Origin: Acidobacteriota bacterium
Lineage (GTDB): Bacteria; Acidobacteriota; Blastocatellia; Pyrinomonadales; Pyrinomonadaceae
Assembly: GCA_020199835.1 (NCBI GenBank)
Contig: JAIVJV010000011.1
Coordinates: forward strand, 1 to 64,000
DNA: 64,000 bases
Direction of reading: 5' to 3'
The notes below the pieces were generated by a model. The model worked only from the letters and a program-made list of their open reading frames with translations, searched no databases and was not told the DNA's origin. Below are positions 2,832-7,122 of the stretch, one piece after another. The position numbers were made by a program, and so were the translations under genes. Each line of letters opens with the position of its first letter. Within the stretch, counting starts at the first letter, position 1.

Positions 2832-4244
2832 CTATCGGTAGTAAAGCGATTTCAGTAGCTGCTTTTGGTCGGCAAAGAGCGCTTTGAGATCAAGCTCCCG
2901 TTGCCCCTGAATGTAACTCTTCGCGAGATCCGCTCCGCCCGGAGTCGAGCTCAGCAACTGGATTATAACTTCATTTCCATTCGCGGGCTGAGTCGCCGGC
3001 CGCGCGAACAGTCTCTTGTAAACACTCCCCAACCACATTTTCCCGCTTGAGTCTTTCCTGATCGCCAGGTCGTACAGGAACGCCACCAATACTCCTTTGT
3101 CGTAAACGACCGAGTTGCCCGTGGTCCAGCGACGTTCGGAAGCATCGATTAACGAAAGCTCGTCGCGTCGCGAAAGATACGCATTGTAAACACGCCCGAG
3201 TGTCGCTAAATATTCGTTTCGATCGATGAACTTCAACTCCAGCGCGGTCACAAGCGCCGTGTAAAGCGTGAAGCCTTCGAAGAACCAGTCGTAGTCACCT
3301 TGCAGCCACAGCGCATTTGGCACCCAAAGGTGCAACAGCTCGTGCGTAAAAATGATTCCGAGTTGACCGCGCCAGTTCGCGATCTTCGCGTGCGGATCCA
3401 TCAACAGAACTACGGTTGACCCGCGCGTTTCAGCACGCCACTTCACCGAGCCCGTCGCCACGGGCAAAGGAGCAATCATCACCGTGCTTTTCGACTTTAA
3501 TTTGAAGCCGGTCAGCTCGAGATACTCCTCCAACACTTTCGCCGCGACTTTCATGACCATCCCCTGGTCAAACGGCCACGCGCCAGTGATCAGAGTTTCG
3601 ATCACCACTCCATCAACGGTCTTCGATGCACGTCCCAGGCTTGTTGCGAGAAGGAAGATCGCGTTCTCCGGTGCAACGACGCGATACTTGATTGGACCGC
3701 CCGATCTCTCGTCAACTTCGATTGTTGACGCAACTCCCCAACCGCCGGATAGCGAGAACTCCACCAGAACATCCGTGAGTTGGTGCGGCAGTAAATCCGC
3801 CAGCATCAGAAAGCCCAAGTCGCGCGTAATCCAACTCACGTGCGCCACATCGCCGGCATTCGGCAGCGGCAACTTCACGACGTAATCGATCGTTTCGGCG
3901 CTCGCGCCGACTCGAAACTCTCCCGTCACGATCTTTTTCGCGCCCAGATCCACGCCGCCGGGGCCTAACGCGCGAAACTGCTCGACGCGGTCCGCGAGTC
4001 CAAGCACTCCAGCATATGCGTTCCGAAACGACCACTCGTTACCCGCCGGCAACGACTCAATCCGTATCCCCACCTCACCCGGCGACGAAACGGTGATCTT
4101 CACTGCTGGTTTCGCCGCCGCGGAGCCGACACCAAACACACCGCACCAAAGCGCGAAAACTACGACGCAGAATTGCCTTTTGCAGACGCCTCTCAGTACA
4201 ATTCCTCCGCCCCAGAATCTAGCACAACCGTTACGGACCAGCAT
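2832..4244 (-). CDS. Secreted M61-like (glycyl aminopeptidase family) metallopeptidase
   Basis: This 470-residue protein has a hydrophobic signal segment at about residues 24-44. The zinc motif HELLHLW is at 301-307, followed by EGFT with the third ligand Glu323, which is the HExxHxW plus downstream Glu pattern of peptidase family M61. The upstream region looks like the family's N-terminal beta domain. The drawn ATG overlaps the ATG of the divergent gene at 4243, so the true start may lie slightly downstream, before the signal peptide, using a non-ATG codon. It heads a minus-strand operon with the SH3 lipoprotein, MobB-like and FmdE-like genes. Confidence 0.75.
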   Translation of the reverse strand: MLVRNGCARFWGGGIVLRGVCKRQFCVVVFALWCGVFGVGSAAAKPAVKITVSSPGEVGIRIESLPAGNEWSFRNAYAGVLGLADRVEQFRALGPGGVDLGAKKIVTGEFRVGASAETIDYVVKLPLPNAGDVAHVSWITRDLGFLMLADLLPHQLTDVLVEFSLSGGWGVASTIEVDERSGGPIKYRVVAPENAIFLLATSLGRASKTVDGVVIETLITGAWPFDQGMVMKVAAKVLEEYLELTGFKLKSKSTVMIAPLPVATGSVKWRAETRGSTVVLLMDPHAKIANWRGQLGIIFTHELLHLWVPNALWLQGDYDWFFEGFTLYTALVTALELKFIDRNEYLATLGRVYNAYLSRRDELSLIDASERRWTTGNSVVYDKGVLVAFLYDLAIRKDSSGKMWLGSVYKRLFARPATQPANGNEVIIQLLSSTPGGADLAKSYIQGQRELDLKALFADQKQLLKSLYYR

Positions 4245-4611
4245 GTTCGCTCGAATGAAACACCAGAGCGCAAACTTCTCGCGTTGGCTCAGCCTGCTGC
4301 TGGTCGCCCTTATTTTCTACGGCACAACCGTCGAAGCCGCGCACCGGCACGGCCGCATCCTATCGTCAGCACCGGACGCCGCTTCGCACGTCGATAACGA
4401 ACAAACAAAGAACCTCACCAACAGCAGGAGCGGGTGCAGCGACTGTCTTATCTGCCAGTTGCACCAGAACCTCAGCACCACGCTGATCGCGCTGCGATTG
4501 CTCGATCCGCCGACTCAGGCGCCACAGCGCGTGGAGATCGTCGTTCCGCGAGATCTCCTGTCACAGAACGTTGGCCCAGTCTCTGGACGAGCGCCACCGT
4601 TTATCTCCTAA
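4243..4611 (+). CDS. Small secreted Cys/His-rich protein (DUF2946-like), probable metal-handling partner of the TonB receptor
   Basis: This 122-residue protein starts with MFARMKHQ and has one hydrophobic segment (about residues 14-31). It then has HRHG (34-37) and a C65-x2-C68-x2-C71-x2-H74 cluster. The layout of N-terminal helix, His pair and CxxCxxC resembles DUF2946 proteins, often encoded beside copper or zinc TonB receptors. An ORF extending upstream to 4093 runs through the divergent gene and is not needed. The Cys/His cluster and location suggest periplasmic binding of a transition metal; this is inference. ATG at 4255 is an alternative start. Confidence 0.6.
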   Translation: MFARMKHQSANFSRWLSLLLVALIFYGTTVEAAHRHGRILSSAPDAASHVDNEQTKNLTNSRSGCSDCLICQLHQNLSTTLIALRLLDPPTQAPQRVEIVVPRDLLSQNVGPVSGRAPPFIS

Positions 4612-4707
4612 ACCAATTCGTCACTCGTGCTTATTCACTTCGCCTGCCGCAAACGCGCGGCGGGACGTGACTTGAGCTAAGCCTTAATTGGATCTCGGGA
4701 GATAAAC
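4599..4707 (+). promoter_or_regulatory. Structured leader sequestering the ribosome binding site of the TonB receptor gene
   Basis: Nested inverted repeats cover the gap before the receptor gene. GTTTATCTCC (4599-4608) pairs perfectly with GGAGATAAAC (4698-4707). Inside lie CCAATT (4613-4618) with AATTGG (4686-4691), GTCAC (4620-4624) with GTGAC (4667-4671), and a GC-rich hairpin at 4641-4663. The outer stem contains GGAG, the only good Shine-Dalgarno for the ATG at 4710, and its other arm lies in the last codons of the upstream gene. Folding would block initiation. No cobalamin-type box was seen, so no known riboswitch class is claimed. Confidence 0.5.
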
Positions 4708-4709
4708 TA

Positions 4710-6902
4710 ATGATAATTCAACGTTTTCTTTTCGCATTCATCGTACTGGTGTTTAGCGGTTTGCCCGTATTAGGCCAAGCGAACGCAACGCTCCGCGGCA
4801 CCGTAACACTCGGCGAGACCGGCAAACCTGTTCATCACGTTCTGATCACTATCCTGCAACTCAAACGCAGCGTCGACACTGACGAAGCCGGTAAATACCA
4901 ATTCACCGATGTTCCTCCGGGCAGATACGACGTGGTCGCGCATCTCGATCGAATTCCCGATTCCGTGAAATCGATCGACGTGACTGCGGGCGCGGAGGCT
5001 ACGCTCGATTTTCGGATCGACCTCGCGGGCATACGCGAGCAAGTGACCGTGACCGCAACGGGCACGGAACAATCGCTCAGCAGTTCAATTCAATCCGTCG
5101 ACGTGCTGGGTTCAGTCGAGCTGGCGAAAAAAAGTCCCGTTTCGCTCGGCGAAGCACTCGATGGCGAACTCGGCGTTGCCAAGCGCAGTTTCGGACCCGG
5201 CACGGCAAGACCCGTCATTCGCGGTTTTGATGGAGATCGCGTGCTTGTCCTGCAAGACGGTAATCGCGTTGGCGGACTCGGTTTTGAATCAGGCGATCAT
5301 GCCGAACCCGTGGATGTGCTGACTGTTGAAAGAGTGGAAATCGTCAAAGGTCCGGCGACTCTGCTTTACGGCAGCAACGCGATCGGCGGCGTCGTAAACA
5401 CGATCTCAGGGCACGACTCGCCACATCACGGCGCCAACGGTTACATAACAGGTCTCGGCAGCACGAACAGCGCGCAGGCGGGCGGCAGCGCTGGCTTCGA
5501 ATTTGGCACCCAACGCTGGCTCGTGTGGGGCAACGCCGGCGGGCAAAGATCTGGCGACTACGACACACCCATCGGCAAAGTGCAGAACTCGTTTTCGCGC
5601 GAAATAAGCTCGGCGGCGGGCTTCGGCTTCTATCCCGAGAAAGCGTTCTTTAGTTTCAACTACAATTTCAACAAGCGCCGGTACGGCATTCCGTTCGATC
5701 CGAATGAACCCGATCCGGAAATCGTCGAGTTGAATCCGCGGCGTCACAGCGTCGAACTTCGCGGCGGCTTTCGCGAGAATCCATCATTCGTCCAGGCCGG
5801 CACGTTCTCCGTTCAGTACAACAACTACACGCACGCGGAAATCGAGTCGCTAACGGGTGAACTCGGCACACAGTTCAAAAACAACACGACCACCTACCAG
5901 GGAATCTTCGACCAGCGAAAGATCGGACATCTTTCCGGCCGCTTCGGTTTTTGGGGCTCGCATCGCGACTTCTCTGCTGCGGGCGAAGAAGCGCTCGCGC
6001 CGCCGACGAAACATAAGACTTTCGCCGTATTTGGACTTCAGAACCTCGACTTCGAAAAAGTCGCTTTGCAGTTTGGCGCACGACTCGAAACTAATCGTTA
6101 TCGTCCGGAAGCGACTGAGGCGCGCGGCCTACTCCCCGATCGAAATTTCACTGGCTTCTCAGGCGCGGCCGGCATTCGCGTGAACACGTGGAACGGTGGC
6201 GCGCTCGTCGCCAATTACTCCCACTCGTATCGCGCACCATCGCTCGAAGAGCTTTATAACTTCGGCCCGCATCCAGGCAATCTCGCGTTTGAAATCGGCG
6301 ATCCAAACCTCGTGCGCGAACGCGGCAACGGCCTCGACTTCGGTGTGCGTCACTCGTCGAGGCGCCTGCGCTTTGAAGCAAACGGCTTTTATTACCGCAT
6401 CAAAGACTTTGTATTCCTCGCGCCCACGGGCGACGTCGAAGACGGTCTCATCGTCGCCAACTACGACCAGGGCGGCACTCGTTACGCAGGCACCGAAGCC
6501 CGCTTCGAAACGCAGTTTCATCCAGCGGTATGGCTCAATCTCGGCCTCGATCACGTGAACGCGGAACTCACCGAAACAAATACCCCGTTGCCGCGCATTC
6601 CGCCGTTGCGCGTGCGCGCCGGACTCGAGTTGCGCTTCAAAAGTCTGCTGCTAAATCCCGAGATCGTGATGGCCAATCGTCAGGATCGGCTTTTCCCGAC
6701 AGAGACGCCTACCGCGGGTTACGCTGTCGCCAATCTTTCCGGCTCGTATTTAATCGCGGGACAGCATCGCGCGCATATTATCGCGTTTAACTTCTTCAAC
6801 ATGGGCGACACGCTGTATCGGAATCACCTGTCCTTCATCAAGCAGTTTGCGCCGGAGATGGGTCGCGGATTTCGCGTGACGTACACGTTGCGCTTCTTTT
6901 AG
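4710..6902 (+). CDS. TonB-dependent outer-membrane receptor, ZnuD-like, with N-terminal carboxypeptidase-regulatory-like domain
   Basis: This 730-residue receptor has a signal peptide (about 1-23), a carboxypeptidase regulatory-like beta-sandwich (about 25-105), a plug and a C-terminal barrel ending in Phe. The plug motifs TARPVIRGFDGDRVLVLQDG, GDHAEPVDVLTVERVEIVKGPATLLYG and NAIGGVVN match the zinc receptor ZnuD and relatives more closely than siderophore receptors. It would import a metal or small ligand with TonB-ExbBD energy. It lies 98 nt after the small Cys/His protein gene, suggesting one operon for metal uptake. The substrate is inferred, not shown. Confidence 0.85.
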   Translation: MIIQRFLFAFIVLVFSGLPVLGQANATLRGTVTLGETGKPVHHVLITILQLKRSVDTDEAGKYQFTDVPPGRYDVVAHLDRIPDSVKSIDVTAGAEATLDFRIDLAGIREQVTVTATGTEQSLSSSIQSVDVLGSVELAKKSPVSLGEALDGELGVAKRSFGPGTARPVIRGFDGDRVLVLQDGNRVGGLGFESGDHAEPVDVLTVERVEIVKGPATLLYGSNAIGGVVNTISGHDSPHHGANGYITGLGSTNSAQAGGSAGFEFGTQRWLVWGNAGGQRSGDYDTPIGKVQNSFSREISSAAGFGFYPEKAFFSFNYNFNKRRYGIPFDPNEPDPEIVELNPRRHSVELRGGFRENPSFVQAGTFSVQYNNYTHAEIESLTGELGTQFKNNTTTYQGIFDQRKIGHLSGRFGFWGSHRDFSAAGEEALAPPTKHKTFAVFGLQNLDFEKVALQFGARLETNRYRPEATEARGLLPDRNFTGFSGAAGIRVNTWNGGALVANYSHSYRAPSLEELYNFGPHPGNLAFEIGDPNLVRERGNGLDFGVRHSSRRLRFEANGFYYRIKDFVFLAPTGDVEDGLIVANYDQGGTRYAGTEARFETQFHPAVWLNLGLDHVNAELTETNTPLPRIPPLRVRAGLELRFKSLLLNPEIVMANRQDRLFPTETPTAGYAVANLSGSYLIAGQHRAHIIAFNFFNMGDTLYRNHLSFIKQFAPEMGRGFRVTYTLRFF

Positions 6903-6957: not shown

Positions 6958-6986
6958 TTGACACGGCGAAGCAGGCCACCTAGAAT
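6958..6986 (+). promoter_or_regulatory. Strong promoter for the microprotein-VWA-purH operon
   Basis: TTGACA at 6958-6963 is separated by exactly 17 bp from TAGAAT at 6981-6986. Transcription would begin near 6993, about 50 nt before the microprotein start at 7045. It is the only good promoter seen before a chain of six plus-strand genes with very small gaps. Confidence 0.75.
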
Positions 6987-7044
6987 TACCGCTTGCTTTG
7001 CTCAGAAATTTCCGCTCTTGGCCCAAAAACCCGAGGATTAAGCC

Positions 7045-7122
7045 GTGAGTCTGGTCAAGATCATCGTCATAACGATCATCGTGCTTCTCAGCATCCTCCT
7101 CTTCGGTCGTTTTTACGTTTAG
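7045..7122 (+). CDS. 25-residue single-pass membrane microprotein
   Basis: A GTG start with the Shine-Dalgarno-like GAGG 9 nt upstream opens a frame of 25 codons ending at TAG (7120-7122). The product begins MSLVKIIVITIIVLLSILLF: a short Lys-containing N-terminus, about 15 aliphatic residues and a basic C-terminal tail, the plan of a small inner-membrane protein. It lies about 50 nt after a strong promoter and 11 nt before the VWA gene, so it would be the first cistron. There is no homology evidence; a leader-peptide role is also possible. Confidence 0.5.
   Translation: MSLVKIIVITIIVLLSILLFGRFYV

Follow-up and report, generated by a model that had tools for sequence, protein, structure and literature searches.

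A CruR-like gene whose end pairs with the Shine-Dalgarno sequence of a ZnuD-like receptor gene: a probable arrest-peptide translation switch in Acidobacteriota

How might a small gene of the DUF2946 type govern the synthesis of a TonB-dependent receptor encoded almost one hundred nucleotides further downstream? This question is raised by a locus of an Acidobacteriota bacterium of the Pyrinomonadaceae (assembly GCA_020199835.1, contig JAIVJV010000011.1), located in a window of 64,000 nucleotides, which is the whole stretch of DNA that was analyzed. The original prediction described four nested complementary pairs over the leader of the receptor gene and considered that translation of the upstream gene could open this structure, either by translational coupling or as part of a metal-sensing RNA switch. 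The features of the locus are collected in Table 1.

Table 1. Features of the upstream gene, the leader and the receptor gene, in positions of the window
Feature	Position	Strand	Basis
CruR-like DUF2946 upstream ORF, 122 aa, predicted metal-sensing arrest peptide	4243-4611	+	Pfam PF11162, alignment
CxxC (CLIC), predicted metal site	4444-4455	+	Both Cys invariant, 27/27
RAPP arrest motif codons; expected P site 4594-4596, A site 4597-4599	4588-4599	+	Published CruR toeprint
5' arm (anti-SD) of the outer helix	4599-4608	+	Folding; locus-specific complementarity at the same offset, 52 loci
Stop codon of the upstream ORF; T4609 adds a G-U pair to the helix	4609-4611	+	Fold, reading frame
Inner nested helices, 98-nt intergenic region	4613-4691	+	Predicted fold; conservation not found
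3' arm including the receptor SD (GGAG 4698-4701)	4697-4707	+	Fold, complementarity
ZnuD-like TonB-dependent receptor, 730 aa, presumed regulated	4710-6902	+	Plug and TonB barrel domains

The outermost stem is present as originally described, a perfect complementarity of 10 bp between 4599-4608 (GTTTATCTCC) and 4698-4707 (GGAGATAAAC) that takes in the GGAG of the Shine-Dalgarno (SD) sequence and is lengthened to 11 bp by a T4609-G4697 wobble. Its 5' arm overlaps the last three codons of the 4243-4611 gene and extends as far as the stop codon, so that the placement of the second arm in the end of an upstream metal-protein gene also stands; the GGAG is spaced 8 nt from the ATG at 4710. Further helices are nested inside the outer one in the predicted fold, as had been proposed (4613-4618/4686-4691, 4629-4638/4667-4677 with a bulge, and 4643-4650/4657-4664), and the minimum free energy (MFE) of 4590-4730 is -44.7 kcal/mol, whereas 200 dinucleotide shuffles average -30.4 (sd 3.5) and none of them matches it (z -4.1). 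Of 77 ordinary gene pairs in the host genome, two form a helix of at least 8 Watson-Crick pairs between gene end and SD and none reaches 10. At the gathering score, the sole Rfam matches of the window are the end of an rRNA and one tRNA, with no family at the leader, in keeping with the earlier remark that no known riboswitch motif is seen, and an intrinsic terminator-like site was sought between the upstream ORF and the receptor gene and not found. An origin of the structure from a repeat or mobile element was considered and rejected: a 151-bp query had no second copy in the host genome (83% complete), the only matches being four of 16-21 bp.

The upstream gene was taken from the ATG at 4243 (122 codons), the list of ORFs starting the same frame at an earlier GTG. 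Its product matches Pfam PF11162 (DUF2946) with 25.5 bits (cut-off 23.7), has a hydrophobic N-terminus as read from its sequence, and was aligned with 26 relatives, the resulting 27 proteins coming from 27 of the 30 loci of the first protein search; 22 of the 27 match DUF2946 at E 0.01. Invariant residues are L20, H34, H36, C68, C71, Q72, G115, R116, P118, and P119, and all 27 proteins keep an HxH, a CxxC and a C-terminal GR-x-PP (x being Ala or Gly), with 44 residues between CxxC and RAPP in the protein of the window. The gene before the upstream ORF is divergent and the gene after it is that of the TonB receptor. The first ATG of the divergent gene (2832-4244) abuts the ATG at 4243; the upstream ORF may therefore have a promoter that overlaps this neighbor, and a weak promoter-like site is seen at 4173-4202.

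Relatives of this gene were collected in Pyrinomonadaceae and other Acidobacteriota. The protein search gave a match in 39 of 97 related genomes, and the search with the 27-row alignment in 43 of 119 family genomes and 10 of 396 phylum genomes (the own genome being counted each time). Five weak Pfam places that neither the protein search nor the family search had given, four of them with in-frame stops, were left out. Five close relatives came from a named collection; four are Pyrinomonadaceae and the fifth is a Blastocatellia bacterium, groups that belong to Acidobacteriota. In total 57 loci were examined, that of the window included (50 family places and seven outside), and RAPP or RGPP is present in 54 of these matches, two of the other three being cut by contig ends and one lacking the motif. 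Three loci at contig ends (L157, L169, L194), one without RAPP (L178) and one of the two L181 rows, in which the next gene is 528 nt away, were set aside, leaving 52 loci (47 with RAPP and five with RGPP) in which a downstream start could be used, at 45-230 nt from the stop codon. In L181 (1-4701, G048:C47) two RAPP-bearing DUF2946 genes occur in tandem on the same strand, the second being followed by a receptor-like gene. The residues that follow RAPP are highly variable, and since 41 different tails occur among the 52 loci, a comparison of their sequences suggests that the constraint after RAPP falls on the RNA.

Alignment of the nine orthologous leaders upstream of ZnuD-like receptors with MAFFT misplaces the SD arm, as leader length and SD-ATG spacing vary, and for this reason the outer helix was tested by matched vs. 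permuted pairing. On that alignment RNAalifold predicted not a single pair, and conservation of the inner helices as one structure was not found in the nine leaders. A metal-sensing RNA in the leader would fit the strong nested fold (z -4.1), but the leader has no Rfam match at the gathering score, the nine leaders yield no consensus fold (in an alignment that misplaces the SD arm), intergenic sequences and lengths vary, and the CxxC/RAPP protein accounts for sensing; in addition, the accessible text of the study on CruR of Bordetella pertussis reports that copper was without effect on CruR termination in vitro, which speaks against sensing by the RNA there (PMC9426467). A riboswitch is extremely improbable, and this half of the original proposal is not supported, the protein having the CruR sensor motifs.

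In the matched vs. permuted test the arm was defined as the 27 nt from the second Pro codon and the initiation region as -28 to +25 of the downstream gene, with receptor starts set by an automatic rule blind to the arm, and each arm was paired with its own initiation region or with those of other loci. Own pairing over the 52 loci had a mean of -16.76 kcal/mol vs. -12.48 for permuted pairing, a value reached in none of 20,000 permutations. The result persists when each sequence cluster is represented by a single locus (mean z -10.0 for 45 clusters, -9.5 for 38) and when each of the 21 genera is (mean z -6.7 over 100 draws, which range from -4.5 to -8.5 and each give 0/2000 permutations as low), and the same test on the 77 ordinary gene pairs of the host genome gave z -0.7. 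Helices of at least 8 Watson-Crick pairs with the SD segment are found in 18 of the 52 own combinations, 136 of the 2652 swapped ones and the two of 77 ordinary pairs mentioned above. Raw duplex energy differs between the test loci and 112 ordinary gene pairs (means -16.8 vs. -14.7, p 0.002) with broad overlap, and is a weak separator, probably owing to GC content and rough ORF calling.

Among the nine orthologues with a ZnuD-like receptor, matched pairing also exceeds permuted pairing (z -3.6; 16 of 50,000 permutations). Lack of compensatory changes in homologous leaders had been named as the observation that would speak against the helix; two-sided changes, read off the best duplex of each locus, occur in these orthologues at six arm positions (-13, -12, -11, -8, -4, and -1 from the end of the stop codon), that at -1 being TAA or TAG with U or C opposite. 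Against the general picture, the arm of G011 pairs better with the SDs of five other orthologues than with its own, and in 10 of the 45 receptor-like loci the arm is little more complementary to its own SD than to those of other loci. In four of these ten (L168, L188, L195, L198), as well as in the efflux locus L197, the arm pairs with the beginning of the coding region (about 0 to +24) and not with the SD; these five loci belong to one genus and their coding-start partner is GGCTCAGAGA-like.

The position of the arm bears on how a ribosome could act on it. When a segment of 14 nt was slid from -180 to +129 of the P-site codon, with 25 to 52 loci contributing at each offset, a single peak of complementarity appeared at offset +6 (segment +6 to +19; z -10.4), with z -4.6 to -8.7 at the other offsets from 0 to +12 and all values within |z| 2.3 over the rest of the scan. 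The peak is retained in the 31 receptor loci outside the genus of the window (z -7.1) and when each of 19 genera supplies a single receptor locus (z -6.3). When the best SD helix was sought from -150 to +150, at least 8 pairs were found in 20 of the 52 loci and 17 of these 20 overlap the peak. The leading edge of an arrested ribosome usually lies 15-16 nt beyond the P site. By this reckoning a ribosome with 4594-4596 in its P site would cover the message to about 4609-4610, and thus the whole 5' arm.

For the anchoring of the arm, the search ran between -6 and +43 relative to the P-site codon, and the 26 loci (of 52) whose helix has 7 or more Watson-Crick pairs were examined. The mean arm span is +7.5 to +15.7, and the standard deviation of the arm center is 3.0 nt when measured from RAPP vs. 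7.9 nt from the stop codon (3.1 vs. 4.9 nt without L159). In L159, 15 residues follow RAPP and a perfect 11-bp arm lies at +8 to +18, that is 36-46 nt short of the point where the stop codon ends. These figures weigh against ordinary translational coupling, in which any translating or terminating ribosome opens the helix without a programmed arrest: the arm is close to the stop codon in most loci, where terminating ribosomes would cover it too, but its center keeps a steadier distance to RAPP with and without L159, the arm of L159 sits just after RAPP and well before the stop, and RAPP or RGPP is present in 54 of the 57 matches. The steadier anchoring to RAPP favors arrest over simple termination coupling and rests much on L159; because this locus carries much of the contrast, our confidence in arrest was trimmed and that in coupling raised slightly, the latter still being improbable. 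The earlier idea that an upstream ribosome opens the structure fits the evidence, in a form more specific than ordinary coupling, as the arm keeps its steadier distance to RAPP.

The effect of covering the arm was estimated as the predicted cost of opening a 10-nt segment at the SD with the arm free or covered. At the locus of the window this predicted cost falls from 14.7 to 5.3 kcal/mol, and the mean over the 52 loci from 8.2 to 5.0 kcal/mol (Wilcoxon p 7e-7), vs. a fall to a mean of 5.9 for shuffled arms (p 6e-6). The drop is at least 3 kcal/mol in 25 of the 52 loci and smaller, absent or reversed in the other 27.

The top NCBIfam match of the receptor is ZnuD (NF038289; 204 bits, below the cut-off of 950) and its nearest solved structure is that of ZnuD (4rdr). 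As the receptor falls well below the family cut-off, zinc is not established as the metal of this system, nor is copper, on the sequence evidence at hand. Within 6958-7121, 3' of the receptor gene, a good promoter-like site (11/12) precedes a tiny hydrophobic ORF, the latter read by eye. By blastp linkage the downstream proteins of the 52 loci comprise 45 receptor-like proteins and seven of the efflux outer-membrane type, labels that rest on ten scanned proteins (four efflux and six receptor-like) plus the receptor of the window; three of the six scanned receptor-like proteins have CarboxypepD_reg and a barrel domain and no plug match at E 1e-5.

Locus-specific SD complementarity is strong in the receptor-like group (z -10.6, n=45) and was not detected in the efflux group, where seven loci give low power (z -0.2); the direct comparison of both groups is suggestive only (p 0.06, n=7), and in the single efflux loci L182 and L164 the own SD pairs better than the average SD. 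If arrest signals low metal, an exporter gene with an arm in front of it would respond with the wrong sign, and absence of the arm there would make sense. In three efflux loci (L154, L180, L182) the best partner of the segment after RAPP is an element about 56-107 nt upstream of the efflux gene start and not the SD. A scheme for efflux loci in which pairing of the arm with such a mid-leader element would free the SD is not supported, since covering the arm hardly alters the predicted cost of opening the SD there.

Several known systems share parts of this arrangement. CruR is a copper-responsive upstream ORF of B. pertussis defined by CxxC and RAPP, and the TonB receptor encoded after it depends on RAPP for its expression and is switched off by copper via CxxC, according to the accessible text of PMC9426467. 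The locus of the window resembles CruR-bfrG as described there in its DUF2946 upstream ORF, its CxxC, a RAPP three residues from the end and a TonB receptor as the next gene, in the distance between CxxC and RAPP (45 residues in CruR vs. 44), and in a long intergenic region (162 vs. 98 nt; PMC9426467). They differ in that the window has a long-range helix that reaches the SD, whereas no SD-masking stem is described for CruR-bfrG in the text available for PMC9426467, where the terms "Shine" and "ribosome binding" are absent. In vitro arrest of CruR places RAP in the P site, and upstream ORFs with RAPP or RGPP before TonB-related genes are widespread in Gram-negative bacteria, as stated in the accessible part of PMC12992588, which leaves the control of the downstream gene open and describes no SD helix. 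The literature searched, in its accessible texts, gave no account of a helix that masks the SD after a CruR-type gene.

The control reported for CruR is Rho-dependent termination, the authors having judged the intergenic distance incompatible with translational coupling (PMC9426467, accessible text). Under such attenuation an arrested ribosome would protect the transcript and the helix would be incidental. This is the published mechanism of the B. pertussis system (PMC9426467, same text), yet locus-specific SD complementarity at one offset in loci of 21 genera is not expected of a helix without a role, and Rho attenuation by itself appears very unlikely at this locus; it could act together with SD masking.

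Masking of an SD by a stem is known from CutF-cutO of Rhodobacter capsulatus, which, in the accessible text of PMC9973294, likewise has a DUF2946-like exported sensor with a proline-rich end followed by a stem that masks the next SD. The predicted fold at the window, with the conservation described above, points to a comparable masking of the receptor SD. CutF-cutO differs in its CxxxC, another end motif and a multicopper oxidase as target vs. CxxC and a TonB receptor (PMC9973294), and in that copper causes stalling (PMC9973294), whereas metal would relieve arrest in the scheme proposed here; its intergenic region is given as 40 bp in the part available of PMC8456105. In SecM-secA, arrest at RAGP keeps an SD-masking stem open, but SecM senses protein export and not metal (PMC10987492, PMC7897499, both as partly available). 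The arrest peptides ApdA, ApdP, and ApcA occur upstream of protein-localization genes, and the accessible texts give no predicted SD-masking hairpin for them (PMC10951233, PMC7897499).

CutF-like genes on alphaproteobacterial plasmids were also read, in 11 of the 18 records found (L211, L213-L222; L212 holds no such gene), and ten of the 11 genes are annotated before multicopper oxidases. Counted from the first base of the codon that opens the last PP pair, the best SD complement begins 12-16 nt further on, in the C-terminal codons, in seven of these genes and lies elsewhere in four, one of the 11 having an approximate start position; five of the seven share one arm (CGTCTCCTC) and are not independent. 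As the best SD complement follows PP shortly in 7 of the 11, there are hints that an anti-SD layout after PP may be shared more widely.

Taken with the helix and its locus-specific conservation, the steady position of the arm at the expected edge of an arrested ribosome and the CruR motifs of the protein make it likely that synthesis of a metal-uptake receptor is switched at this locus by an arrest peptide, at the level of translation. We infer that the CruR-like peptide would be exported and, when metal (most likely copper) is scarce, would arrest its own ribosome at the C-terminal RAPP. The arrested ribosome would cover the 5' arm and block the helix, leaving the SD free and allowing the receptor to be made. 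Metal bound at the CxxC of the nascent chain would relieve the arrest; once the ribosome has left, the arm would pair with the SD and synthesis of the receptor would fall. Such a switch would most likely join sensing of the CruR type to SD masking of the CutF/SecM type.

The arrangement may extend to CruR-type sensors of Acidobacteriota in general, with an anti-SD arm in the footprint of a ribosome at RAPP across gaps of 95-230 nt, present before importers and absent before exporters. We lean slightly towards this generalization, the confidence placed in it having been trimmed because L159 dominates the contrast between RAPP and stop codon and the exporter result has little power. The arrest-peptide switch would offer a simple alternative to Rho for the action of an arrested ribosome on a gene 100-200 nt away, and the analysis points to the exact bases of the arm and the SD. 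It would also leave a signature that can be measured, as SD complementarity specific to each locus would stand at a single distance from the arrest motif, and the same scan may be applied to other arrest peptides whose control of the next gene is unexplained.
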